NCBI RefSeq assembly: GCF_024623785.1 | Contig: NZ_JANKBZ010000018.1 | Location: forward strand, 124,001-188,000 | Length of the DNA: 64,000 nucleotides | Direction of reading: 5' to 3' | Source: Archangium lipolyticum | GTDB taxonomy: Bacteria > Myxococcota > Myxococcia > Myxococcales > Myxococcaceae | Notes under the pieces: model-generated | The model's database searches: none | What the model was told of the DNA's origin: nothing | The model's input: only the letters and a program-made list of their open reading frames with translations | Part shown: piece after piece, positions 1,644 to 23,720 of the stretch | Numbering within the stretch: position 1 is the first letter of the stretch | Layout of the letters: the number at the start of each line of letters is the position of its first letter | Translations under genes and position numbers: made by a program

Positions 1644-2537
1644 TTAAGCCGCGCACGCACCGATGGTGCCCTCGGGGAACTCCTCGAGGAAACGCGCGCG
1701 GGCACGCGGCGTGAAGATGCCTCGCGCCATGTACGCCAGCAGACGCCGCAACACCCCGCGGCACTGAGCCACCGCGTGCTCCACCTCGGAGGCGAAGTCG
1801 AAGGCGTCGTTGCGGTACAGCTCCTGGAAGCTCAGCTGCGAGTAGGCGGGCAGCGCCCTCATCCGCCCCAGCGGGCTGGAGAGGTACAACCCCGCCGTGT
1901 ACAGCCCCCGCGCCCACCCATCCACCTGTTGCTTGGTGGGCGCCTGCTGCAACGTCTCCTGCGAGGCCAGCCGCACCAGCTCGTAGATGCCACGGCCGAT
2001 GCCCTTCACCGGGAAGCCCGCGCTCTTGGTCACCTCGAACTTCGAGCGCAGGCGCGGGCTGCCCACCAGATCCACCCCGTGCAGCTCACGCAGGTAGAAG
2101 AGCGTCTGCGTCCACTCGATCTTCCGGTGCGCGACGAGCGCGTGCTCCCCCATGCGCCGGTGGCGCACCACCAGAGTGTCCACATGTGGATGGAGCACGC
2201 GGTCCAGGGACAGGTGGGTGAAGTAGCCGGCCAGCAGCGCGAGCCCCGCCTCGGTGCCCACCAGGGCTCCGGCGGCCACCAGCTCGGCCATCTTCAGGCC
2301 CATGCCCACCGGCGCGCGCTCATGGTACAGCCGCGCGAACTGGGGCCAGTCCGTCCCGGAGGAGCACGCGTTGAGCCCGCCGCGCAGCCCGTCACACAGG
2401 GGCAGGTCGGGCAGCGCCGCGCCGAAGCGCGCGTAGGCCAGGTCCTCGGACAGCGCGCGTACGAAATCCTCGGGCAGGTCTCCCGGATTGGTGGCCAGTC
2501 GCTCGATGGCGGTCAGGTGCAGCAGCAACGAGGGCAT
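1644..2537 (-). CDS. Zinc-dependent phospholipase C-like family protein
   Basis: A protein of 297 residues. The N-terminus has the His/Asp-rich pattern of the zinc-dependent phospholipase C fold: a conserved HLTAIERL helix, then YARFGAALPDL, a YHERAPVG stretch and AGYFTHLSLDRVLHP, supplying His and Asp ligands for a metal cluster. There is no signal peptide, so it is probably cytoplasmic, and phospholipase activity is not certain. The start ATG (2537) fits the family N-terminus; an ATG at 2567 would add ten residues, and neither has a strong ribosome binding site. It is divergent from pepA, leaving a short shared promoter region (2538-2654). Confidence 0.75.
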   Translation of the reverse strand: MPSLLLHLTAIERLATNPGDLPEDFVRALSEDLAYARFGAALPDLPLCDGLRGGLNACSSGTDWPQFARLYHERAPVGMGLKMAELVAAGALVGTEAGLALLAGYFTHLSLDRVLHPHVDTLVVRHRRMGEHALVAHRKIEWTQTLFYLRELHGVDLVGSPRLRSKFEVTKSAGFPVKGIGRGIYELVRLASQETLQQAPTKQQVDGWARGLYTAGLYLSSPLGRMRALPAYSQLSFQELYRNDAFDFASEVEHAVAQCRGVLRRLLAYMARGIFTPRARARFLEEFPEGTIGACAA

Positions 2538-2654
2538 GTGCCGGACGTATCCACCGCGGCGTGTCATTGCAACGACGGATAGCTGGACCGTTCTTGCCTG
2601 AAACATTCGCGGCGTTACAGTCGCCCACCCCTTTTCCAGGAGCCCATCTTCCTC

Positions 2655-4244
2655 ATGAACTTCAGCTTCATCTCCGGCGAGGCCGCACGCGCGAACGGTG
2701 AGCTGCTCGTGATCCCCCTCTTCGACGGGGAGCTCGGGGACAAGCCGCCCGCGTCGCTGGCGGGTGCCGACGCCCCGCTGGACGGCAAGCTCGCCGCCGC
2801 CGCTGCCCAGGAGGGCTTCAAGGGCAAGAGTGATCAGACCTTCGTGATGCACACGCTGGGCAAGCTCGAGGCCGAGCGCGTCGCGCTGCTGGGCCTGGGC
2901 TCGCGTGCCCGGTACACGCCCGAGGTGCTGCGCCTGGCGGCCGGCCGCGCCGCGAAGACGGCCCAGCGCCTGAAGGTGCGCACCGTCGTGTTCGCCGTGC
3001 CCGCGGTGGAGGACCTCGTCTCCGCCCTGCGCGCCACGGTGGAGGGCCTGGAGCTGGGTGCCTACCGCTTCGAGCGCTACAAGTCCTCGGCGGCCAAGGA
3101 GGACAAGAACGCGCCGAAGCTGACCACGGTGCGCCTGGCCCTCCCCGGTGGCACGGACAAGACGAAGGAGCACGATCAGGCGGTGGCGCTCGCGCAGCGC
3201 GTGGCCGAGGCCACCAACTGGGCGCGCGACCTGGTCAACGAGCCCCCCAACGTCGTCAACCCCGAGCGGCTCGCCCAGGCGGCCCAGGAGATGGGGCGCG
3301 AGGGCGGCCTCAAGGTGACGGTGGGCAACCGCAAGGAGATCGAGCGGCTGAAGATGGGGATGTTCCTCGGGGTGGCGCAGGGCAGCGCGAACGAGCCCAA
3401 GCTCATCCACGTCGAGTACACGCCGAAGAACGCGCGGCAGGCGAAGCAGCCCCCGGTGGCGCTGGTGGGCAAGGCCATCACCTTCGACTCGGGCGGCCTG
3501 TCACTCAAGCCCACCGACTCCATGGTGGACATGAAGACGGACATGGCCGGCTCGGCCGCGGTGCTCGGCGCCATGAAGGTGATCGCCACCCTCAAGCCGC
3601 CCTTCCCCGTGCACGCCTTCATCGGCGCCTGCGAGAACATGCCCTCGGGCACCTCCTACCGGCCCAGCGACGTGCTCGTGTCGCGCTCGGGCAAGACGGT
3701 GGAGATCACCAACACGGACGCCGAGGGGCGCCTGGTGCTCGGAGACATCCTCACCTGGGCCACCGAGCACAAGCCGGCGGCGATCATCGACCTGGCCACG
3801 CTCACCGGCGCGTGCGTCATCGCCCTGGGCAACTACATCGTGGGCGCCTTCGGTGATCACGACGCCACGGTGAACGACGTGTTGGAGTCGGCGCGCACTG
3901 CGGGCGAGGAGATGTGGCGCCTGCCCGTCACCGAGCTGCAGAAGGACGCGCTGCGCTCGGAGATCGCCGACATGAAGAACTCCGGCGAGCGCTGGGGCGG
4001 AGCCATCAACGCCGCCCTCTTCCTCAAGGAGTTCGTCGGTGACACGCCGTGGGTGCACCTGGACATCGCCGGCCCGTCGGTGAGCCCCAAGGAGCGGGGC
4101 TACCTGGGCAAGGGCGGCACGGGCGTGGGCGTGCGCACGCTGGTGGAGTACGTGCGGCGCCGCGCGAGCCAGCTCGAGAGCAGTGGAGCCGCCGAGGAGG
4201 CTCCCGCTCCCAAGCCGTCGCGCGGCGGCCGGGCGAAGGGCTGA
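2655..4244 (+). CDS. pepA: Leucyl aminopeptidase (M17 family, cytosol aminopeptidase)
   Basis: A protein of 529 residues. It removes N-terminal amino acids from peptides in the cytoplasm, using two divalent metal ions. The M17 catalytic core is plain: VGKAITFDSGG around residue 271 (metal-binding Lys and Asp), the DMAGSAAV segment, and the family signature NTDAEGRL at about residue 353. The N-terminal macrodomain-like region is divergent, as usual. The last ~35 residues are a Pro/Lys/Arg-rich tail beyond the family's normal end. An AGGAG at 2638 precedes the start by a slightly long spacer. It is monocistronic and convergent with the next lipoprotein gene. Confidence 0.95.
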   Translation: MNFSFISGEAARANGELLVIPLFDGELGDKPPASLAGADAPLDGKLAAAAAQEGFKGKSDQTFVMHTLGKLEAERVALLGLGSRARYTPEVLRLAAGRAAKTAQRLKVRTVVFAVPAVEDLVSALRATVEGLELGAYRFERYKSSAAKEDKNAPKLTTVRLALPGGTDKTKEHDQAVALAQRVAEATNWARDLVNEPPNVVNPERLAQAAQEMGREGGLKVTVGNRKEIERLKMGMFLGVAQGSANEPKLIHVEYTPKNARQAKQPPVALVGKAITFDSGGLSLKPTDSMVDMKTDMAGSAAVLGAMKVIATLKPPFPVHAFIGACENMPSGTSYRPSDVLVSRSGKTVEITNTDAEGRLVLGDILTWATEHKPAAIIDLATLTGACVIALGNYIVGAFGDHDATVNDVLESARTAGEEMWRLPVTELQKDALRSEIADMKNSGERWGGAINAALFLKEFVGDTPWVHLDIAGPSVSPKERGYLGKGGTGVGVRTLVEYVRRRASQLESSGAAEEAPAPKPSRGGRAKG

Positions 4245-4254
4245 GGCCCCCCGC

Positions 4255-4863
4255 TCAGGTCTGATCGGGCATGGTGGGCAGCGGGTGGACGCTCTCGAAG
4301 AGGGCGTTCACCGCCGCGGGCACCTCGTCCGGCGCGACCGACGGCCAGGTGGCCAGCATCATGAAGACGTGGCCGGGGCTGCCATCACGCACCACCACCC
4401 GGCCCCGCACGTTGTCGCCCACGGCGAAGTGGAAGCCCACGGCGCTGTCGGACATGGGCATCGGCTCGGGATCCGAGGTGACGAAGCCGGGCTGGCTGCG
4501 CAGGCCCATCGTCAGCTTCTCGGCGAACTGGGCCGGCGTGGCCACCGCCGGAGCCACCTGGAGGACGATCTGGGCGCCGCTGGCGCGGTGGCGCAGGACG
4601 ACGGGAATGGTGAGCCCCTCGGGGGTCTGCTCGTCCGTCTGGTCCAACGTCCAGCCGTCCCCGGGCTGGGTGAGCTCGAAGCCCAGGGCCTGGTCCACGT
4701 AGCGTCGCGAACCGGACTCATCCGAGCCGGGGGACTGCGCGTCCGCTTCCAGACCCGAGCCACCCATCCCCGGATCGGACGGCTCCCTCACTGCCTGTTT
4801 CGCGCCGCTGCACGCAGTGCACACCACGACCAGCGCCCAAACCCATACCCGCCTTGCGCCCAT
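4255..4863 (-). CDS. Putative lipoprotein, unknown function
   Basis: A protein of 202 residues. The N-terminus MGARRVWVWALVVVCTACSG looks like a lipoprotein signal, although position -3 of the lipobox is Cys rather than Leu/Val. A Gly/Ser/Asp-rich linker follows, then a ~140-residue globular part with a YVDQALGFELTQPGDGW opening that recalls small periplasmic domains in which proteins handle insult or stress, but no family was assigned. The ATG at 4863 is chosen over an upstream ATG in the same frame because GGGAGG lies five bases before it. It converges on pepA, with only ten bases between the stops. Confidence 0.65.
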   Translation of the reverse strand: MGARRVWVWALVVVCTACSGAKQAVREPSDPGMGGSGLEADAQSPGSDESGSRRYVDQALGFELTQPGDGWTLDQTDEQTPEGLTIPVVLRHRASGAQIVLQVAPAVATPAQFAEKLTMGLRSQPGFVTSDPEPMPMSDSAVGFHFAVGDNVRGRVVVRDGSPGHVFMMLATWPSVAPDEVPAAVNALFESVHPLPTMPDQT

Positions 4864-4953
4864 GTAACCTCCCAACAACGGCCTTGGGGGCACAAGCTGG
4901 AGATGGGGTGTGGGGGCGGCTAGGCCCCCCCGACCCCAGTGCGCGCTCCTGTG

Positions 4954-5679
4954 TCAGGCGGCGGAAACTTCCTCGGCGATCGCGCGTGCGGCGGACAGGG
5001 GCTCGGCCGCGGTGTGGATGGGACGGCCCACCACGAGGAGATCCGCACCCGCGCGCACCGCGAAGGCCGGCGTCTCGGCGCGGCTCTGGTCCCCCTTCGC
5101 CGCGCCCGCGGGGCGGATGCCCGGGGTGCAGAGGAAGGGAGAGGGGCCGAGCTCGCGGCGGAAGGCCTCTGCCTCGCGGGGCGAGCACACCAGCCCGTCC
5201 ACCCCCGCGCGCACGGCCAGCCGGGCCAGCCGCAGCGCCGCCTCCTCGGGGGCGCCGGAGAGCCCCACCGAGCTCACATCCTCGGCGGACATGGAGGTGA
5301 GCACCGTCACCGCGAGCACCCGGGGGGCCTCATGGCCCTTGGAGCGGGCCCCCTCGCGGGCGCCCTTCACGGCGGCCTTGAGCATGGCCTCGCCCCCGGC
5401 GGCGTGCACGGTCAGCAGGGAGGCGCCGAGCGCCCCGGCACGCGCGGCCGCCAGCTCCACGGTGTTGGGGATGTCGTGCAGCTTCAGATCGAGGAACACC
5501 TTGGCGCCCAGCTTCAGGAAGGCGGCCACGGCGGCCGGGCCGTGCTCGACGAAGAGCGAGAGGCCCACCTTCGCGTAGGCCACGTGGGGAGCCACCTGCT
5601 GGTAGAGGCGCAGACCGTCTTCCAGCGGCAGATCCGCGGCGAGCGCGAGCCGGGCCCGCGCCTGTGAGGTGTCCGTCAA
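4954..5679 (-). CDS. pyrF: Orotidine 5'-phosphate decarboxylase
   Basis: A protein of 241 residues that converts orotidine monophosphate to UMP, the last step of de novo pyrimidine synthesis. The active-site signature [11 protein letters not shown] is intact near residue 65, and the C-terminal phosphate-gripper region (VVGRPI) is present. Length fits the family. The start is a TTG that overlaps the stop of the DUF4388 gene (TTGA, 5676-5679), so translation is probably coupled. It is the last gene of the lpxC-to-pyrF minus-strand run. The pairing with a signalling protein is probably coincidental. Confidence 0.95.
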
Positions 5680-6938
5680 GCGAGTCCCTCCTGGAGATCC
5701 CTGTAGCTGCGGTAGAGCCGCTCGGACATCTCGCCCGGCAGCACGTTGCGCGCGGAGAAGAGCGCGTAGGAGACGAAGGCGTCGAGCGCCTCGAGCGTCA
5801 TGGCGCGCGCCAGCGCCTCGTCGCCACTGGAGACGTTCTGGCGCAGGCGGGCCACGTCCACCCGGCCATCCGGGCCGAGCTCGACGCCCTCATAGGCCGT
5901 CTCCAACCCGGGCGTGGGCGACTCGAGGAAGCCGCGCAGCAGATCCGGGTTGGCGCCCGCCAGGCGGATGGCGGTGTGGATCTGCGCGAGCAATACGTTG
6001 AAGCGCTCCTCGGGGCTGAGGGGCGCCACCGGAGGAGGAGGCACCGCCATGAAGGTGCCGGAGACCCGCCGGGGAATGAGAGGCGCGTTGGGCTTCTGCT
6101 GGAGGAGGAGCGCACCGTCGCGCGAGCGCTCCTCCACCCAGGTGAGGAAGGAGAAGAGGCTGCCCTCCCAGAGCGAGCGCAGGGCGCCCAGCGTGGTGCC
6201 GGAGGCGGCCCTGGCGAAGAGGGCCTCCTCACCGGGGGGCGGAGCCTCGGGGCCAACCGACACGGGCATGTCGTCCGGGAAGTGCTTGCGCAGCCGCGCC
6301 ACCACCTCGCCGCGCTTCATCCCCTGGAGGACGAGATCCTTGGTGCGCTCCTGGAGCTTCACCGAGTCGCCCTCGGGCGGACGCCCCTCGAGGAAGAGGA
6401 AGCTGCCCTCGGCCATCTCGAAGAGGTTGAGCAGCACCTCGCGCACCAGGTACGTCATGGCGCTGTAGAGGTTGGCCTCGGAGAGGAAGCCCTCGCGGGT
6501 GAGCACCGCGCCGATGCGCAGGGTGGGCGTCACCTTGCCCAGGGCCTGGTGGAGCTGCTCGGGGGTGACGAGGCCCAGCTGCACCACCACGGCGCCGAGC
6601 CGCTCATGGTGGACGCTGGAGACGGCGAAGATGGGCTGGCCGTCGCGGAAGGTGACGGTGCGCTGCACCATGCCGTGCTGGAGGATGAGCTGGCCGCTGC
6701 GGATGCCCGACAGCACGTGGCCGAGCACCTCCTCCACGGCCAGTGAGCTCAGGCTGCCCGCGAAGAAGCCGGAGAGGGAGGCGGGCTCCCGCAACAGCAC
6801 CATCCCCTCGGGCGCATGGAAGTGCGCCGCGAGGGGACGGCCGGGGGAGAGGCTGGCGGCGAGAGGACGCTCCAACTCGAGCGTCGTCGGCTCACCGCTC
6901 AATCCCAGGCGAGGCGTGGCCTTGGGGCGTATCGCCAC
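5676..6938 (-). CDS. DUF4388 domain-containing protein
   Basis: A protein of 420 residues with a GTG start preceded by AAGGAG. Residues ~35-210 match the DUF4388 (PATAN-like) pattern common in myxobacteria: an [18 protein letters not shown] opening, then [18 protein letters not shown] and a helix-rich part ([17 protein letters not shown]). Such domains are thought to act in signalling or protein-protein interaction, often beside receiver domains. The rest is helical and uncharacterised. It follows the DsbA-like gene by 13 bases and overlaps pyrF by four, so it is inside an operon. No enzymatic motif was seen. Confidence 0.75.
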
Positions 6939-6951
6939 GCGGAGAGGCTCC

Positions 6952-8031
6952 TTACTTCTTCGCCTTCAGCTCGGCGTCGATGATGCTCTTGAACTCCTCG
7001 ATGGGCTGAGCGCCGGAGAGGAGGACGCCGTTGATGAAGAAGGCCGGGGTGCCGTTGACGCCCACCTTCTTGCCGGCCTCCAGGTCGGCGTTCACGATCG
7101 ACGCCTTCTCGCCGGAGTCCAGGCACTTGTCGAACTTCGCGGAGTCCAGGCCCACCTTCTTGGCGTGCTCCTTGAGCTGGGGCACCTCGAGCGCCTGCTG
7201 ATTGGCGAAGAGCGTGTCGTGGTACTCCCAGAACTTGCCCTGGTCATTGGCGCACAGCGAGGCCTCGGCGGCCTTGGGCGCCTGCTTGTGGAAGTCCAGC
7301 GGGAACTGGCGGAACACCAGCCGCACCTGGTTGGGGTACGCCGCGAGCACCTCGTCCACCGTCTTGATGGCGCGGCTGCAGAACGGGCACTGGAAGTCGC
7401 TGAACTCCACGATGGTGATGGGCGCGTTCTCGGGGCCGCGCGACGGACCGGTGGCGGCCACTTCCTTGCGCTCGACCGGGGGCTTGGGCGGCTCGGGCAG
7501 GGTGATCTGCACGTTGTTGGCCTTCTTCAGCTCGTCGAAGTAGGTGCGCGCGCGCTCCTGGCGCTTGGAGCCGTTGAGGAAGTCGACGATCTGCGGCTTC
7601 ACCTGCTCATAGGTGGTGCCCGGGGGCAGCCGCTCCTTGGCCTCTTCGTACAGCTTCTTGATCTCCTCCTCGGGCGGCTGCGGGATCTTCCCGTCGATCT
7701 CCGCCTTCATGAGCTCATCCTCGCTCACGCCCCGCTTCTTGGCCTCGGCCTGCACGAGCTTCTCCACCACGAAGCCCTCCAGACCCTGCTTGCGCAGCTG
7801 GTACTTCTGCTTCTCCAGGTTGGCCAGCGGCTCCTTGACGCGCTCGTTGAGCTCGCCAAAGGTGACCTTCTGGCCGTCACCGTAGGTGGCCACGACGGTG
7901 TCCGGAGAGGGCTCCGCCGAGGTGGTGGTCGCCGGGGCGGCGGTCGCCGGGGACTTCTCCTTGTTGCAACCGGAGAAGAGGGAAGCCGCCAGCAACGCGG
8001 CCAGAATGGTGGAAGTAGAGCGCATGAGCAT
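6952..8031 (-). CDS. DsbA-family thiol-disulfide lipoprotein with SurA-like N-terminal region
   Basis: A protein of 359 residues. A lipoprotein signal ends in LFSGC (Cys at ~22), so it should be anchored in the envelope. Residues ~45-175 are helical and resemble the SurA/PrsA chaperone N-terminal region (VATYGDGQKVTFGELNER), followed by a DsbA-like thioredoxin domain from ~195 with the active site FQCPFCSRA and a cis-Pro loop (NGTPAFFING). It probably oxidises or isomerises disulfides of exported proteins while binding them. The ATG at 8031 is favoured over 8025 because AGGA lies at a usable distance. The gene lies just downstream of lpxC. Confidence 0.85.
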   Translation of the reverse strand: MLMRSTSTILAALLAASLFSGCNKEKSPATAAPATTTSAEPSPDTVVATYGDGQKVTFGELNERVKEPLANLEKQKYQLRKQGLEGFVVEKLVQAEAKKRGVSEDELMKAEIDGKIPQPPEEEIKKLYEEAKERLPPGTTYEQVKPQIVDFLNGSKRQERARTYFDELKKANNVQITLPEPPKPPVERKEVAATGPSRGPENAPITIVEFSDFQCPFCSRAIKTVDEVLAAYPNQVRLVFRQFPLDFHKQAPKAAEASLCANDQGKFWEYHDTLFANQQALEVPQLKEHAKKVGLDSAKFDKCLDSGEKASIVNADLEAGKKVGVNGTPAFFINGVLLSGAQPIEEFKSIIDAELKAKK

Positions 8032-15899: not shown

Positions 15900-18011
15900 T
15901 CAGGAGAAGGGGCCGTCGGCCGGGAGCGCCGGGGCCGCGTCGGGTTTGTCATCGGCGACATCGGCGGTCTCACCTGCGCTGGCCGGACGGTGTGGGTGAA
16001 CCAACAAGAGTGACGTGGAAGCCTCGCGGATGAGGCGCTCGTGGTGCTCGGCCTCCACTCCCACCACCACGAGGTCATACCCCCGGCGTGCTTCCTCCAG
16101 GATCGCGTCCTCGGGCGAGTCGTGCGCCACCACCCGGGTGTGCACGCGCCCGGGCTCCTCCAGCGTGTGCTCGCGGGGACCCGCGGAAGGCGTGACGTGC
16201 AACACCGTCACCTGTGCGTCCGTGGAGCGCAGCAGACGCCGGGCGAGCCCCAGCGCCGCCCGGTCCTCCCGGCCGCCGATGAAGGGCACCAGCACCCGGC
16301 GCACGTTCTCCAGGCCCCGGTCCACCAGCACCGCCACGTCCGTGCCCGCTTCCCGCATCACCTCGCGCACGGTGCCGCCCAGCATCGTGCGGCCGAAGAG
16401 CGGCTCGTGCCAGCCCAGCAGGATGAGGCTGGCCTGCTTGGCCTCGGCCGTGCGGCAGATGTCCAGCCCTGGCTCGGTGGACACGAACGACAGCGGCCTC
16501 ACCTCCAGGCCCAGCGTGCTCGCGCGTCCCAGCAGCGGGGCCAGGGCATCTCCTGACGTGTCCTCTTCCCGCCGGGGTTGCAAGGAGGAGCGATCGCTGG
16601 GGGCCACGAGGTGCAGGGCGTAGAGTTGGGAGGGCTCGGCGAGGGGACCGGTGAGGGCATACCCCAGGGCCACCATCGCGCTGCCCACCTGTCCCCGGCC
16701 CACGCACATCAGCACGGTGAAGGGCGCGGGAGCCACCTGGGGACTCACGGGGGCGAGCGGCACCCGGTCCCGCGCTTGTTCCCCGGGCGGATACACCCAG
16801 CGCAGCAACGGCGAGGCGATGAGGGCGGTCACCAGGGCCATCACCACCAGCATGGTGAAGAGCTTGGGAGAGATGAGCCCCAGGTCCAGGCCGAGGTTGA
16901 GGACGATGAGTCCCATCAACCCGCGCACGTTCATCAGGATGCCGAGCGCCCCCGCCTCGCGCCAGCGCATGCCGGTGAGCCGCGCGGACACCGCGCTGCC
17001 GCCGAACTTGCCCACGCAGGCCACCAGGAGGATGAGACCGCACAGGGCCCAGTCCGAGGCGCTCCCCAACAACTCCAGGTGGGTGCGCAGGCCGCTGTAG
17101 ACGAAGAAGACGGGCAGCAGCAGCACGCCCACCACGTCCTCCAACCGCTCCACCAGCGCCTCGGCCAGTCCACCCTCCTTGGGGACGATGACCCCGAAGA
17201 GGAAGGCGCCGAAGAAGGAATGGATGCCGATGTATTCGGTCGCCCACGTGGACGCCAGCAGCAGCAGCAGAATGAGGACCACCACGTTCTGGTTGAGGCC
17301 CTCCCTGCTCGCCACACGCGCGCCCAACCGCTGAAGGAAGGGCCGCACCACGCCCAGCATGAGGCCAATGTAGAGCAGCACGAGGAGCGTGGTGGACACC
17401 GCCTGCTCCAGCCCCGAGGCACGCACCCCGGACACGACGAAGGCCAGCAGGCACCACGCCGTCACGTCATCCACCGCCGCGCAGGTGAGGGCCAGGAGCC
17501 CCACCTTGGAGCGCAGCAGGCCTCGCTCCGAGAGGATTCGCGCCAGCACCGCGAAGGCGGTCATGCTCAGGGCCACCCCCAGGAAGAGCACGAAGAAGGG
17601 GCGCGGCACGGAGGGCTCGGACAGGCGCGGGTAGAGCCACCACGCCATTAGCGCCCCGAGCAGCAGGGGCACCAGGAGGCTGGTGTAGCTGATGACGATC
17701 GAGGCGCGGCCCTGGCCTCGGAGCACCCGCGGATCCAGCTCCAGCCCGATGAGGAACATGAAGAGGATGAGCCCCAACTGGCTCAGCATCTTCAGCACCG
17801 GCAGGCTGCTGGCCGGGAACAGCCACTCCATCGTTCCCGGGGCCACCCACCCCAGCAGCGAGGGTCCCAGGAGGATGCCCGCGAGCACCTCGGCGATGAC
17901 CAGCGGCTGCCCCAGCCAGCGCGCTCCCCGCCCGATCAGCCGGGACAGGCCGATGATGACCACGAGCTGAACGAGGAGCAGGCTGAGCGGGTTGTGCGCG
18001 AGGTCTGCCAT
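15900..18011 (-). CDS. CPA2-type cation:proton antiporter with C-terminal universal-stress domains (copy B)
   Basis: A protein of 703 residues. Residues ~5-400 hold about 12 membrane spans of the Na+/H+ exchanger (Kef-like, CPA2) type: an IGLSRLIGRGARWLGQP opening, GLELDPRVLRG near 95 and a GRFFG-type region with Asp in TAAVDDVTAWCLLAF. Residues ~420-690 form a soluble tail with two universal-stress-like units (FTVLMCVGRG and RVLVPFIGGREDRAALG). The antiporter should exchange K+ or Na+ for protons at the inner membrane, with the tail sensing nucleotides. AGGAGG-like GGAGG precedes the ATG. It is a close paralogue of the next gene. Confidence 0.88.
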   Translation of the reverse strand: MADLAHNPLSLLLVQLVVIIGLSRLIGRGARWLGQPLVIAEVLAGILLGPSLLGWVAPGTMEWLFPASSLPVLKMLSQLGLILFMFLIGLELDPRVLRGQGRASIVISYTSLLVPLLLGALMAWWLYPRLSEPSVPRPFFVLFLGVALSMTAFAVLARILSERGLLRSKVGLLALTCAAVDDVTAWCLLAFVVSGVRASGLEQAVSTTLLVLLYIGLMLGVVRPFLQRLGARVASREGLNQNVVVLILLLLLASTWATEYIGIHSFFGAFLFGVIVPKEGGLAEALVERLEDVVGVLLLPVFFVYSGLRTHLELLGSASDWALCGLILLVACVGKFGGSAVSARLTGMRWREAGALGILMNVRGLMGLIVLNLGLDLGLISPKLFTMLVVMALVTALIASPLLRWVYPPGEQARDRVPLAPVSPQVAPAPFTVLMCVGRGQVGSAMVALGYALTGPLAEPSQLYALHLVAPSDRSSLQPRREEDTSGDALAPLLGRASTLGLEVRPLSFVSTEPGLDICRTAEAKQASLILLGWHEPLFGRTMLGGTVREVMREAGTDVAVLVDRGLENVRRVLVPFIGGREDRAALGLARRLLRSTDAQVTVLHVTPSAGPREHTLEEPGRVHTRVVAHDSPEDAILEEARRGYDLVVVGVEAEHHERLIREASTSLLLVHPHRPASAGETADVADDKPDAAPALPADGPFS

Positions 18012-18062: not shown

Positions 18063-20225
18063 TCAGGAGGCGGCGTTGCCCGCGGACAGCGAGGGGACCG
18101 CCTCCGTCCTGGAAGTGGCCTCCGCGGCGGGGGCGGCGGCCGAGTGTCGCACGATGAGCAACGAGGTGGGAGCTTCCCGGAGGAGCCGCTCGCCGCGCAA
18201 GCCGAAGAGCTGATCCTCCAGGCCCCACTCCGCGCCCACACCCGCCACCACCAGGTCATACCCGTGCCGGCACTCCTCCAACGCCGCGTCCTCGGGCGAG
18301 TCGTGCGCCACCACCTTGAAGTGCACCCGCCCGGAGCCCCCCGGGAAGAGCTCCTCGACCAGGGGGCGGGTACTCGTGTGCTCGCGCGTGCCCTCGGACT
18401 GGGTGACGTGCAGCACCGTCACCTCGGCGGCGGAGTGCTGCAGCAGGCGCCGGGCCAGCCCCAGGGCCGCCCGGTCATGCGGGCTGCCGATGAAGGGCAC
18501 CAGCACCCGGCGCACGTTCTCCAGGCCCCGGTCCACCAGCACCGCCACGTCCGTGCCCGCCTCCTGCATCACCTCGTGCACGGTGCCGCCCAGCATCGTG
18601 CGGCTGAAGAGCGGCTTGTGCCAGCCCAGCAGGATGAGGCTGGCCTGCTTGGCCTCGGCCGTGCGGCAGATGTCCAGCCCCGGCTCGGCCGACACGAACG
18701 ACAGCGGCCTCACCTCCAGACCCAGCGTGCTCGCGCGTCCCAGCAGGGGCGCCAGGGTGTTGCCGCTGGCCTTCTCCGGATCATGCCGCAGGTGGAAGGA
18801 GGCGCGCTCCGTGGGGCGGATGAGGTGCAGCGCGTAGAGCTGGGAGGATGGCGAGGGCGTACCGAGGAGCGCACGCCCCAGGGTGACCATGCCGGCTCCG
18901 GCCTGCTCGTGGGAGACGCACATCAGCACGGTGAAGGGGGGCGCCTCCGCCAGCGGGGCCTCGGGGGTGAACGACACCTGGTCCCGGGCCATCTCCTCGG
19001 GGGGGTAGATCCACCGCAGCAGCGGCGTCGTCATGAACGTCGTCACCAGCGCCATCACCACCATCATGGTGAAGAGCGTGGGAGAGATGACGCCCAGGTC
19101 CAGGCCGATGTTGAGCACGATGAGCTCCATCAACCCGCGGGTGTTCATCAGGATGCCGAGCGCCCCCGCCTCACGCCAGCGCATGCCGGTGAGCCGCGCG
19201 GCCACCGCGCTGCCACCGAACTTGCCCAGACAGGCCAGGAGGATGATGACGCCGCACATCACCCAGTGGTCGCCGGTGGACAGCAGGCCGATCTCCGTCC
19301 GCAGTCCGCTGAAGGCGAAGAAGAGGGGCAGCAGCAGCACCACCGCCACGTCCTCGAGCTTCTCGGCCAGCGCCTGCGCCAGCCCGCCCTCCTTGGGGAT
19401 GACGGAGCCCATCATGAAGGCGCCGAAGAGGGCATGGATGCCGATGAGCTCCGTGGCCCACGCGGAGGCCAGCAACATCATCAGCGTCAGGGCGACACCG
19501 TTCTGGTTGAGCCCCTCCTTGTTGGCCACGCGCGCGCCCAGCCGGGCCAGGAAGGGCCGCACCACGCCCAGCATGAAGGCGATGTAGAGCATCGCGAAGA
19601 GCGTGGTGAGTCCCGCGTGCATCAGGTCCGAGGCGCGCACGATGGAGACGACGAAGGCCAGCAGGCACCACGCCGTCACGTCGTCCACCGCCGCGCAGGT
19701 GATGGTCATGGCCCCCACCTTGGAGCCCAGCAGCCGCCGCTCGGTGAGGATGCGCGCCAGCACCGGGAAGGCGGTGATGCTCATCGCCACGCCCATGAAG
19801 AGCACGAAGGAGGAGAAGGGCACCGAGGGCTCGGACAGGCGCGGGTAGAGCCACAGCGCCGCCCCCGCCCCCAGTCCGAAGGGCACGATGATGCTGGTGT
19901 GGCTGATGACCACCGAGGCATGTCCCCGGCCCTTGAGCAGCTTCGGGTCCAACTCCAGCCCGATGAGGAACATGAAGAGGATGAGCCCCACCTGGCTCAG
20001 CATCTTCAGCGCCGACATGCTGCTGGCCGGGAACAGCCACTCCATGGCCTCGGGGGCCAGCCACCCCAGCAGCGAGGGCCCCAGGAAGATGCCCGCGAGC
20101 ACCTCCGCGATGACCAGCGGTTGCCCCAGCCAGCGCGCACCCCGTCCAATCAGCCGGGAAAGCCCGATGATGACGATGAATTGTACGATTAGCAGGGTGA
20201 GTGCGTTGTGTGAGACGGCGTGCAT
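18063..20225 (-). CDS. CPA2-type cation:proton antiporter with C-terminal universal-stress domains (copy A)
   Basis: A protein of 720 residues, plainly a tandem paralogue of the next gene: the same IGLSRLIGRGARWLGQP start, LARILTERRLLGSKVG, CAAVDDVTAWCLLAF and the universal-stress unit VLVPFIGSPHDRAALGLA. The tail has an extra insert (TREHTSTRPLVEELFPG) compared with copy B. A GGAGGAG five bases before the ATG supports the start. The gap to copy B is 51 bases, so a common transcript through the XRE-EIIA gene is likely. It may serve potassium or pH homeostasis. The substrate ion cannot be read. Confidence 0.88.
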   Translation of the reverse strand: MHAVSHNALTLLIVQFIVIIGLSRLIGRGARWLGQPLVIAEVLAGIFLGPSLLGWLAPEAMEWLFPASSMSALKMLSQVGLILFMFLIGLELDPKLLKGRGHASVVISHTSIIVPFGLGAGAALWLYPRLSEPSVPFSSFVLFMGVAMSITAFPVLARILTERRLLGSKVGAMTITCAAVDDVTAWCLLAFVVSIVRASDLMHAGLTTLFAMLYIAFMLGVVRPFLARLGARVANKEGLNQNGVALTLMMLLASAWATELIGIHALFGAFMMGSVIPKEGGLAQALAEKLEDVAVVLLLPLFFAFSGLRTEIGLLSTGDHWVMCGVIILLACLGKFGGSAVAARLTGMRWREAGALGILMNTRGLMELIVLNIGLDLGVISPTLFTMMVVMALVTTFMTTPLLRWIYPPEEMARDQVSFTPEAPLAEAPPFTVLMCVSHEQAGAGMVTLGRALLGTPSPSSQLYALHLIRPTERASFHLRHDPEKASGNTLAPLLGRASTLGLEVRPLSFVSAEPGLDICRTAEAKQASLILLGWHKPLFSRTMLGGTVHEVMQEAGTDVAVLVDRGLENVRRVLVPFIGSPHDRAALGLARRLLQHSAAEVTVLHVTQSEGTREHTSTRPLVEELFPGGSGRVHFKVVAHDSPEDAALEECRHGYDLVVAGVGAEWGLEDQLFGLRGERLLREAPTSLLIVRHSAAAPAAEATSRTEAVPSLSAGNAAS

Positions 20226-21269: not shown

Positions 21270-21917
21270 ATGACGAACGGCTCCCCAGAAGGTCCCCCGC
21301 CTCCATGGCCCGACATCCACCGGACGGTGCTCTCCACGCTCGATGCGCTGGCCTCGTCCACCGGGTGGATTCCCACCGCCGCGACCGTTGGTATCGAACC
21401 GATCTTCGAGCGCGTGCTGAAGCAGATCTGCGAGCCCCAGGGAGTGACCCCCTCGGCCTACATCGACGTCCTCACCCGGGACGCCACGCTGCGCGGTGAG
21501 GTCCAGAAGCGCCTGGCGACGTTGATGGAGAACCCGGCACTCGTGAGCATGCGCCGCGAGGCCCAGCGCCGCGAGGCCGAGCACCAGCTCCACATCCTCC
21601 ACTACCTGCTGTCGGGCCAGAAGCCGCCCGACTGGGTGTGGACGTCGCTCGAGGAGGAGCAGCAGCAGCAGCTCCGCGACGCGGCCGAGTCGGGCGAGGA
21701 GAAGGATCCCGTCCTGCTCCCCCGCGTGCAGGGGGCGCTGAAGAAGCTGGCCACGGCCCCCACCACCTACGGCCAGTGCGAGGACTGCGGCACGCCCATC
21801 CTCCTGGAGCGCCTGCAGCTGGTGCCCTGGGCGGAGTGCTGCGCCGCCTGCCAACGCAAGCGCGAGGGCGTCCCGGACGAGCCGCCGGAGCCCCAGGTTC
21901 CCATCCTCTATTTCTGA
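21270..21917 (+). CDS. DksA/TraR-type zinc-finger protein
   Basis: A protein of 215 residues. The N-terminal ~145 residues are helical and unfamiliar. The C-terminus has a C-x2-C-x17-C-x2-C zinc finger at C170, C173, C191 and C194 (YGQCEDCGTPI...CCAACQRKREG), the exact spacing of DksA/TraR proteins that bind the RNA polymerase secondary channel. The usual acidic tip of a DksA coiled coil is not seen, so an RNA polymerase role is uncertain. The 3' end overlaps the ATP-grasp gene's 3' end by ten bases (convergent). A Gln-run (EEEQQQQLRDA) precedes the finger. Confidence 0.75.
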   Translation: MTNGSPEGPPPPWPDIHRTVLSTLDALASSTGWIPTAATVGIEPIFERVLKQICEPQGVTPSAYIDVLTRDATLRGEVQKRLATLMENPALVSMRREAQRREAEHQLHILHYLLSGQKPPDWVWTSLEEEQQQQLRDAAESGEEKDPVLLPRVQGALKKLATAPTTYGQCEDCGTPILLERLQLVPWAECCAACQRKREGVPDEPPEPQVPILYF

Positions 21918-22858
21918 GCCCTCGCCCCCTCCACCACGCGCCGGGCGATGGCACGGCTGATGGGGTGTCCGAGCTTCAGCTCGACATCCAGGTAGATGGG
22001 CGAGCTGTTGAGCTCCAGGAACACCCAGTCGTCCCCGAGCTGCTTGATGTCGATGCCGGCGAAGGTGAGGCCGCACGCGCGCGCGGCCTCCCGGCAGAAG
22101 CGCTGGATGGGCGCGGGGAGCGGCACCTCGCGGTAGGAGGCCCCGCCCCCGCTGTAGACGGGGTCCGCCCGGAAGTCGAGGTGCTGCTCGGGCGTCTCGA
22201 TGGCCACGGACGAGACGATCTCCTCCCCCACCAGCATGACGCGCAGGTCGGCGCCCGGGACGCGCTCCTGGAAGATGACGGGCGAGGCGGTGACGTCCTC
22301 GAGCCGCCCGAGCGCCTCGTCATCCAGCACCCGGGTGACGGCCCCGCCCATGATGGGCTTGAAGATGACGTCCTTCACGTCGGCGTGGAAGGCGCGGATG
22401 GCGGCCGGGTCGTTCGAGATGAGCGTCCGGGGCACCCGCGCCCCGAGGCTCCTGAGCGCGTGGAGCTGGAAGGGCTTGTACTGCATGACGCTCGCCGCAT
22501 GAGGGCCGTTGACCAGCGTGGCGCCCCGGTGGGCGAGCTGGAGCAACCACGCCACGTAGTACGAGGCCCGCTCGCGCGTGTGCATGAAGGTGGTGAACCA
22601 GTCCTCGTAGAGGACGAGCTCCCCATTGCGCTCCACGGACGGGGCGTAGGGAGCGGGGATGCCGCGGAGGTAGAAGCCCCGGACATCGCCCACCGGCTCA
22701 CCGAGATAGAACGTCTGCCCATCGAGCATCGACAGCGGCAGACCCCGGTCGAGCGCATCGGGCTCGATGAAGAGCGTGTCCGCGCCGAGCGCGGCGGCCT
22801 CGCGCGCCACCGCCCTGCACTGCACATCCGCCGCCGGGCCAAAGACGCCGATTCTCAA
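21908..22858 (-). CDS. RimK-like ATP-grasp ligase, candidate graspetide macrocyclase
   Basis: A protein of 316 residues. The ATP-grasp core is clear: a Lys-rich KPIMGGAVTRVL loop (~170), QERVPGADLRVMLVGEEIV (~210) and the metal-binding C-terminal motif FLELNSSP (~290). Ligases of this RimK/MdnC/PsnB group couple carboxylates to hydroxyl or amino groups with ATP. The start is TTG 22858, because GGGGGAG is close upstream and MRIGVFG is the family N-terminus; ATGs at 22915/22921 lack a binding site. It is divergent from the 51-aa TTxxxxEE peptide (22939), sharing an 80-base promoter region, which points to a plesiocin-type graspetide ligase. Confidence 0.82.
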   Translation of the reverse strand: MRIGVFGPAADVQCRAVAREAAALGADTLFIEPDALDRGLPLSMLDGQTFYLGEPVGDVRGFYLRGIPAPYAPSVERNGELVLYEDWFTTFMHTRERASYYVAWLLQLAHRGATLVNGPHAASVMQYKPFQLHALRSLGARVPRTLISNDPAAIRAFHADVKDVIFKPIMGGAVTRVLDDEALGRLEDVTASPVIFQERVPGADLRVMLVGEEIVSSVAIETPEQHLDFRADPVYSGGGASYREVPLPAPIQRFCREAARACGLTFAGIDIKQLGDDWVFLELNSSPIYLDVELKLGHPISRAIARRVVEGARAQK

Positions 22859-22938
22859 GGCACTCCCCCCGCGAATGGGACCCACACGTGGTCCGGGCCT
22901 TGCAACCCTGAACATGAACATCCACGGAGGGAAATGTC

Positions 22939-23094
22939 GTGACGAAGACGCGGAAGGGTCCGCCGTTCATCAAGTTCGCGCTGCCGAAACCCCGGAAGCC
23001 CGCCGACAAGCAACCGAGCAAGCCCGACAAGCCGAAGCCCACCGATCGCCTGACGACGATGGCGGTGGGCGAGGAAGGAGGCAGCAACCGCTAG
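22939..23094 (+). CDS. Candidate plesiocin-type graspetide precursor peptide
   Basis: A 51-residue frame below usual length cut-offs, starting at GTG with GGAGGG eight bases upstream. The leader contains GPPFIKFALPKP (7-18), similar in kind to the PFF.RFLE leader motif of microviridin-type precursors, then a Lys/Pro-rich linker. Residues 39-46 are TTMAVGEE, exactly the TTxxxxEE motif in which plesiocin-group precursors form paired Thr-to-Glu side-chain esters; a short GGSNR tail follows. It has only one core motif, unlike multi-repeat plesiocin. It is divergent from an ATP-grasp gene. Modification is inferred; no protease or exporter gene is adjacent. Confidence 0.75.
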   Translation: MTKTRKGPPFIKFALPKPRKPADKQPSKPDKPKPTDRLTTMAVGEEGGSNR

Positions 23095-23108: not shown

Positions 23109-23720
23109 TCAGGCGTTGGTGCGCAGCACCTTGAGGGCCTCGCGGAAGAGGGCCTGGAAGGCGGCCTCGCCCCCGAGCCGCTCGCTGGCGGACTCCGCGG
23201 CCTTCTCCGCCTGGGGCTGCTTGTAGCCGAGGTTGATGAGCGCGGAGACCAGGTCCGCCATGTGCCCGGCCACGGGCGCCGCCGGCGTCGCCTGCGCGGC
23301 CACCTGCTCCAGGTGCAGCGTCTTCACCTTGTCCTTGAGCTCCAGCACGAGCCGCTCGGCGGTCTTCTTCCCCACCCCGTGAATCTTGGTGAGGCGGGCC
23401 ACCTCGCCCCGGCCCAGCGCGGCCACCAGCTCCGGCACCTCCATGCCGGAGAGCACCGCCAGCGCGAGCCTCGGGCCCACGTGGGACACCGAGTTGAGCA
23501 GCAGGAACAGCTCCTCCTCGGCCCGCGAGAGGAAGCCGAACAGCTCGAAGGCGTCCTCGCGCACCACGGTGCGCACGCGCACCTTCACGGACTCGCCCTC
23601 GGGGGGCAGCCGCCCGAGCGTCAGGGAGGAGAAGAAGACGCGGTACCCCACTCCACCCACGTCGATGATGGCCTCGTCGAGGCTCTTCTCCTGAACGATG
23701 CCACGCAGTGCCGCGATCAT
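23109..23720 (-). CDS. ruvA: Holliday junction branch migration protein RuvA
   Basis: A protein of 203 residues that binds the four-way junction as a tetramer and positions RuvB. The N-terminal OB-like domain (MIAALRGIVQEKSLDEAII) and a helix-hairpin-helix region (GVGKKTAERLVLELKDKV, ~residue 112) are visible, followed by the C-terminal three-helix domain that contacts RuvB (~155-203). The ATG overlaps the stop of ruvC by four bases (ATGA, 23717-23720). The stop lies 14 bases from the end of the candidate graspetide precursor gene on the other strand. Confidence 0.96.
   Translation of the reverse strand: MIAALRGIVQEKSLDEAIIDVGGVGYRVFFSSLTLGRLPPEGESVKVRVRTVVREDAFELFGFLSRAEEELFLLLNSVSHVGPRLALAVLSGMEVPELVAALGRGEVARLTKIHGVGKKTAERLVLELKDKVKTLHLEQVAAQATPAAPVAGHMADLVSALINLGYKQPQAEKAAESASERLGGEAAFQALFREALKVLRTNA

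Follow-up and report, generated by a model that had tools for sequence, protein, structure and literature searches.

Introduction

The plesiocin-type, or group 2, graspetides are defined by the core motif TTxxxxEE, in which threonine-glutamate esters are arranged in a characteristic pairing of rings. Here we describe two divergent genes in a 64-kilobase (kb) stretch, hereafter the window, of the 12.6-Mb genome of Archangium lipolyticum (G000). Archangium violaceum Cb vi76 (G005) and A. lansinium (G001) are its congeners. The pair very probably constitutes a two-gene graspetide system, made up of a precursor peptide with one TTxxxxEE core (residues 39-46) and an ATP-grasp ligase.

Graspetide ligases in general are described as using ATP to phosphorylate a carboxylate, which is then attacked by a nucleophile (PMC13097080). 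Plesiocin has four cores (PMC12291112), compared with one to 18 in the window family, and its potency reportedly rises as cores are added (PMC13097080). Microviridins (MdnA/MdnB/MdnC) share the Thr-Thr...Glu-Glu ring logic, with the bait residue placed after the threonine pair (PMC7823629), but contain an amide in addition to esters and have two ligases (PMC8939145). Residue 5 of microviridin B follows its Thr-Thr, and in microviridin L residue 5 is reported to set the choice of protease (F5L, F5R, F5Y, and F5M variants; PMC7823629). Corallotide, a group 15 graspetide of Corallococcus, is likewise a myxobacterial repeat peptide with an ATP-grasp ligase, but its rings are described as amides in KxxxD motifs, and an oxygenase as its partner (PMC13097080). 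The same source gives machine-listed groups 34 and 35, often with long precursors of repeated motifs, group 35 consisting of synthetase and precursor only; the window family may fall among these. Published work already covers graspetides, plesiocin with its multiple cores, and a single dehydration in a group 2 peptide (PMC12291112, PMC9576775, PMC13097080). The Archangium pair was not described among the literature matches listed, which covered titles and the start of abstracts, with subscription papers and supplements outside that scope.

Results

A small gene divergent from an ATP-grasp ligase

The coordinates, strands and letters of the locus agree with a preliminary description made from the sequence alone, as does its strong ribosome binding site. 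The features of the pair are as follows.

22939..23094, plus strand: precursor peptide gene, 51 amino acids (aa), GTG start, stop codon included; kept in four of six genus genomes
22926..22931, plus strand: ribosome binding site GGAGGG, 7 nucleotides (nt) upstream of the GTG, from sequence
22960..22986, plus strand: leader motif PPFIKFALP, residues 8-16, the presumed ligase recognition site
22987..23052, plus strand: Lys/Pro-rich linker, residues 17-38, between leader and core, from sequence
23053..23076, plus strand: core TTMAVGEE, residues 39-46, pattern as in 145 cores of 21 precursors; esters predicted
23077..23091, plus strand: C-terminal tail GGSNR, from sequence; relatives commonly have GG behind the core
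21908..22858, minus strand: ATP-grasp ligase of graspetide type with 316 aa, start probably TTG; profile, Foldseek and tree
22859..22938, no strand: divergent intergenic region, 80 base pairs (bp) between the two start codons, from sequence

The ligase open reading frame (ORF) had been listed as 21908-22921 on the minus strand; since relatives align from the TTG at 22858 (MRIGVFG), we place the likelier start there.

Across its six frames, the window contains a single TT....EE. In 40 Markov-simulated 64-kb sequences of similar dinucleotide make-up, ORFs of 30-100 aa containing it arose with a mean of 0.025 per sequence, and the motif in any frame with a mean of 0.325. Stronger evidence comes from conservation. 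A search of 98 related genomes found a divergent peptide at the same place, with 74-98% identity, in G001, G003, and G005, hence in four of six genus genomes with the window included, and both threonines and both glutamates are retained in all four. Over the six Archangium pairs the precursor has a dN/dS of 0-0.42, the closest pair differing by four synonymous and no non-synonymous changes. Judged by this conservation, the 51-aa frame is a real gene, and a chance ORF is rejected.

The ligase is nearest to PsnB

A ligase profile (A2) built from 16 relatives and searched against PDB chains gave 7drm as its best match (214.9 bits, E 1.4e-62), an entry identified as PsnB (PMC10452190; also by its Foldseek titles). 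Lower scores were obtained for 9bou (103 bits; PruB by its Foldseek title), MdnC (5ig9, 77 bits), and RimK entries (45-51 bits); no chain resembling the precursor peptide was found in PDB. In a Foldseek search with an AlphaFold model of the ligase alone (mean pLDDT 82), ranks 1-15 were all PsnB chains, with TM scores of 0.77-0.81 by query length, and RimK ranked lower.

In a ligase tree of 39 rows, from which L047, L048, L052, and L061 were omitted as duplicates (G112, G113, G111, and G123, respectively, by contig position), the window clade comprises 25 rows (support 98/92), including the very long branch G022B. Its likely sister is a group of 10 rows (96/80) formed by PsnB with six paralogues (100/99), the ligases of L040 and L044, and G010. 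Together these are split from MdnB, MdnC, CdnC, and PruB at 100/99, so that the window ligase lies outside the MdnB/MdnC clade; it also falls outside the clade of PsnB and its six paralogues, the published network cut-off being unapplied. By sequence and predicted fold the ligase is thus nearest to PsnB and of graspetide type, and the preliminary description passes its own check that the enzyme group with graspetide ligases. A RimK-type ligase is rejected by profile, fold, and tree.

The preliminary description, which calls the locus plesiocin-type, is supported, with refinements. In common with the PsnA2-PsnB system, the locus has one ATP-grasp ligase with PsnB as its nearest solved enzyme, a TTxxxxEE core, and a predicted hairpin bicycle. 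In contrast, its ligase belongs to a sister clade, the leader of the window family is of a [PS]F[IT]x[YF]xLP-like form lacking a double-glycine site before the core, and no NHLM-type exporter was found among the window neighbours scanned; group 2 loci are described as often having such an exporter, though not obligatorily (PMC13097080).

Two loci of G000, on contigs C8 and C17 (L068 and L069), resemble the window locus in having a PsnB-clade ligase and one TTxxxxEE core, but differ in their double-glycine leaders, KKIKELFVQDLARI(Q/E)GG, in a core cysteine (TTxACxEE), and in each encoding a C39-peptidase-type ABC exporter (best NCBIfam match NHLM_micro_ABC1, below cut-off). Their precursors, at 2344-2595 (+) in L068 and 4994-5176 (-) in L069, carry the cores TTLACCEE and TTFACGEE. 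Since the C8 locus also encodes a VKOR-like membrane protein, a disulfide in addition to the esters is possible there. PsnB-clade ligases also accompany single-core peptides with TTMKVGEE and TTMQVGEE (L033, 2452-2646 (-); L034, 2551-2919 (-)), whose leader is without a double glycine. These may represent another exporter-free line, exporters not having been searched for there.

The pair recurs across the family

At a cut-off of E 1e-50, the ligase was matched in 26 of 96 family genomes. Leaving aside G010 (40% identity) and G008 (64% over half the protein), the remaining 24 hold 25 ligase genes at 61% identity or more, that of G116 being cut by a contig end. A TTxxxxEE precursor lies divergent and directly upstream of 22 of the 25. 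The other three are in G022, where the precursor stands beside an adjacent second ligase, G111b, which has one-Thr cores, and the truncated G116. Carriers include Hyalangium versicolor, Pyxidicoccus caerfyrddinensis, P. fallax (G116), and Myxococcus sp. RHSTA-1-4. An adjacent precursor with conserved Thr/Ser donors and Glu acceptors is therefore present, as the graspetide class requires, and TTxxxxEE is kept in relatives that retain the ligase, except in the one-Thr offshoots; this conservation had been set out as a check on the initial reading.

Across the phylum, 32 of the 195 genomes sampled matched the ligase at the same cut-off. Carriers outside the order are G156, G162, G181, G182, and G183, at 39-43% identity, two of them over part of the protein. 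Core-like repeats lie near the match in G181 (TSQAVGEE) and in G182 (TTEAVGEE/TTMAVGEE), whereas the surroundings of G156 gave no match to the core motifs, and those of G162 and G183 one chance-like match each.

A third gene constantly accompanying the pair was sought by comparing the frames of 16 loci all against all, and rejected: apart from the ligase, the precursor, and frames that overlap these, nothing recurred in more than four loci. There are two weaker candidates. Long frames occur in L047, L048, L052, and L061; the two scanned encode PAS/GAF/histidine-kinase proteins, and the frames look like shared common domains. A protein family of about 34-45% identity, with no Pfam match in the two members scanned, occurs near the pair in three of the 16 loci, from three genera (L060 8108-9061 (-), L059 5021-6136 (-), and L058 9696-10931 (+)). 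In G022 (L060), two ligases (5001-5933 (+) and 6102-7034 (-)), one of them very divergent, flank a 17-core precursor (6998-7972 (+)). G059 (L027/L056) is the only carrier found in the order beyond the family itself. Its ligase is interrupted by an in-frame TGA and its precursor is frameshifted, reflecting decay or an assembly error.

Core number varies on a near-fixed scaffold

The 145 cores counted here come from 21 precursors, three of them cut by contig ends. The count leaves out G124, G129, the broken G059 pair, the half-length G008 (L032), P. fallax (G116, with a contig that starts within the ligase), and the precursors of one-Thr type (L031/L062, L118). Among the 18 complete precursors, five have one core (four from Archangium and one from a metagenome-assembled genome), five have two, and eight have 10-18; the three cut precursors have at least five, at least six, and at least eight. 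Outside this set, the complete precursors of G129 and G124 have 12 and 15 cores. Thus the single core noted in the preliminary description is the Archangium state, whereas relatives have two or 10-18; nor is it peculiar to this locus, as two other graspetide loci in the window's genome have one TTxxxxEE core each. Ligases 77-80% identical to that of the window face 2 or 12-15 cores. Parsimony gives three changes in core number, and the AU test does not reject grouping the few-core ligases in a single clade (p 0.234); two trees disagree on the placement of G111b and on the order of the multi-core lines. Given these results, and the single cores of the PsnB-clade paralogues in the same genome, a reduction from many cores to one is not established.

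Within the 145 cores, threonine is replaced only by serine (three times at position 1 and seven at position 2) and glutamate never. Because the first search pattern itself demanded Thr/Ser and Glu, the cores were sought again by the middle A[VLIMFT]G alone, and all 137 found in this way have T/S, T/S, E, and E at positions 1, 2, 7, and 8. Ala occupies position 4 in 141 of the 145, and a hydrophobic residue (V, L, M, I, or F) position 5 in 144. Gly stands at position 6 in 138, the other seven having H, R, N, or A there. Position 3 holds M in 52 cores, L in 45, K in 30, Q in 8, A in 4, R in 3, and E in 3, and M/L are mixed with K/R there in 9 of 11 precursors of at least five cores. Other positions vary as well, but by these tallies it is position 3, right after TT, that changes chemical type most.

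The linkers are rich in G, P, and K, and their Lys/Arg residues are followed by Pro in 147 of 174 cases (mean 37 and maximum 52 in 500 shuffles), in contrast to none of 35 inside the cores. Such linkers are consistent with a product that is protected against trypsin-like proteases everywhere but at the bait. The leader motif of the relatives takes forms such as SFIRYELP, SFIQYELP, PFTRYELP, and PFIKYETP, and is weaker in L049, L058, and L059; GGAG or GAGG lies within 20 nt ahead of the start in all 21 precursors.

Offshoots with altered cores

In G111b (L118, G111:C370), a precursor frame lies at 3844-5037 (+) and a ligase frame at 2966-4093 (-). The precursor has a leader, SSFIKYESPRK, related to that of the window family. 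Its 13 cores, however, are of the form [RQYH]T-x-A-x-P-E-E (RTMAYPEE, QTMAYPEE, and RTKALPEE, among others), in which the first donor is gone, making it a natural candidate for a one-ring derivative. In G010 (L031, 991-1482 (+)), a 163-aa frame with four T[ML]A[IV]PEN repeats lies directly before the 40%-identical ligase on the same strand; this ligase is on the PsnB side of the tree, yet 37-44% identical to window-family ligases.

G182 (L117, G182:C20:239700-244147), from another family of the phylum, has a precursor followed on the same strand by two ATP-grasp ligases (4063-4446, 3013-4059, and 2073-3323, all (-)). The precursor, cut by the contig end, has eight TT[ME]A[VL]GEE cores and two VIKVRADDP units, in which KVRADD represents KxxxD. 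One ligase is of window type, and the other is nearest to those of L044/L040 (39%), and so to the corallotide type. L040 carries FPDDGVIVKIVADDPLR, which is all but one residue of the corallotide fragment as printed (PMC13097080). These motifs suggest one precursor for two ring chemistries, ester plus amide; if this is true, one G182 polypeptide would carry both kinds of ring.

Site history in Archangium

The DksA-like and ruvA genes that border the pair are found in all six genus genomes, whereas G002 and G004 are without the pair. In G004 (L094, about 780-860), some 100 bp separate the two genes; translated by eye, this DNA gives DIRGFYLR, from the early part of the ligase, joined to the ligase C-terminus. 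In G002 (L093, about 1780-1870), the gap is occupied by a different gene, and the ligase is reduced to its C-terminus, of which slightly more is left than in G004. Since the break points differ, the pair was most likely present at this site in the genus ancestor and lost in two separate events.

Discussion

The reality of the gene, the kinship of the ligase, the linkage of the two, and the conservation of the core are established by the comparisons above. On this basis, we propose the following model. The precursor is translated, and its hydrophobic motif PPFIKFALP would dock on the ligase. Given the kinship with PsnB and the conserved core, the ligase would phosphorylate a core glutamate with ATP, a threonine hydroxyl would attack, and the reaction would be carried out twice. 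By analogy with plesiocin, the most likely result is two nested esters, Thr40-Glu45 within Thr39-Glu46, giving a hairpin-like bicycle of eight residues with a loss of 36 Da. We give about even chances to the product being a small serine-protease inhibitor with Met41, right after TT, as its bait; position 3 is taken as the bait because the equivalent residue 5 of microviridins governs protease choice. An exporter and a leader protease, if any, would be encoded elsewhere.

Together with the changing residue after TT and the Pro that follows linker Lys/Arg, the range from one to many cores suggests single- to many-headed protease inhibitors. We put forward only tentatively, and with more doubt than confidence, the wider idea of an evolving array of inhibitors with the Archangium peptide as its smallest member. 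In it, a bait unit would have been multiplied (1, 2, or 10-18 copies), re-aimed by changes after TT, protected by Lys-Pro linkers, reduced to one ring (G111b and G010), or mixed with another chemistry (G182), and, there being no exporter or processing gene, the full-length array would itself be the product. The pair offers a minimal ligase-substrate combination (316 + 51 aa) for bicyclic ester peptides. Its relatives form a natural series of one unit at 1, 2, and 10-18 copies, in which the evolution of core number, and of the residue after TT in relation to protease choice, can be followed.

Several observations weigh against this model and have to be set beside other explanations. The tree tool flags long branches (9bou, G022B, G010, CdnC, and others), and because these meet in places, the sister relation to the PsnB group is likely rather than certain. 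That the ligase might be RimK-like or another amino-acid ligase, with an unrelated small frame or chance ORF beside it, would agree with Pfam, which gives it general ATP-grasp domains only (RimK, GSH-S_ATP, and ATP-grasp_3), and with NCBIfam, where graspetide maturases come first (TIGR04187, MvdC, and MvdD) but far under their cut-offs. Even so, RimK is far behind PsnB in the profile search and lower in Foldseek, and the peptide shows codon-level conservation and is found with the ligase in different genera; we regard this explanation as hardly credible. A real pair whose Archangium product has one ring, or an incomplete set, in place of two esters is improbable, albeit less remote. It has precedents in the one-Thr cores of G111b and G010, and in Gra-5 (group 2, Glaciecola), which showed one dehydration on expression, read by its authors as inefficient modification (PMC9576775); all four Archangium precursors, however, keep both donors and both acceptors, and the two-donor type exchanges Thr for nothing but Ser (137 of 137).

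It is quite possible, although we lean against it, that the product is a graspetide but no protease inhibitor, serving instead as a structural or aggregating extracellular peptide or as a signal. Corallotide has been likened to collagen, and no significant activity is reported for it against soil bacteria on agar (PMC13097080); many units strung together by flexible G/P/K linkers would also make sense in a structural peptide. A structural repeat, on the other hand, gives no clear reason for the variation after TT on a near-fixed scaffold, nor for Pro after linker Lys/Arg. Two cautions apply to this last argument: the repeats of one array arose by duplication, so that the core and linker tallies are not independent events, and in the window precursor no linker follows the core, so that the linker argument rests on relatives (before the window core itself, Lys/Arg is followed by Pro in 5 of 12 cases). 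The absence of the pair from two of six genus genomes indicates that it is dispensable, and with no exporter or protease found among the neighbouring ORFs scanned, delivery is unexplained. A single core where many relatives have more, together with ligase remnants with differing break points in two genomes, might also mark the Archangium copy as a shrinking relic in the course of being lost; we consider this unlikely, as both genes are intact in the four genomes that have the pair, and selection on the precursor there is purifying. A two-gene graspetide system thus remains our preferred interpretation of the locus.

Genomic context

Two further genes border the pair.

21270..21917, plus strand: DksA/TraR-type zinc-finger gene, context only, tail-to-tail with the ligase with a 10-bp overlap; six of six genus genomes
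23109..23720, minus strand: ruvA, context only; six of six genus genomes

As the preliminary description had it, no protease or peptide exporter adjoins the pair: none was found among 14 neighbouring ORFs scanned with Pfam between 10.9 and 33.7 kb, the segments at about 13.3-15.9 and 27.3-29.5 kb being unscanned. These ORFs encode two Na/H exchangers, the DksA-like zinc finger, RuvA, RuvB, RuvC, YebC, an alcohol dehydrogenase, a response regulator, an RNA cyclase, RtcB, and RtcR, and two are without a match. The two exchangers (15903-18011 and 18063-20225, both (-)) are adjoining Na/H exchanger-plus-Usp proteins with very similar N-termini, and probably arose by tandem duplication.

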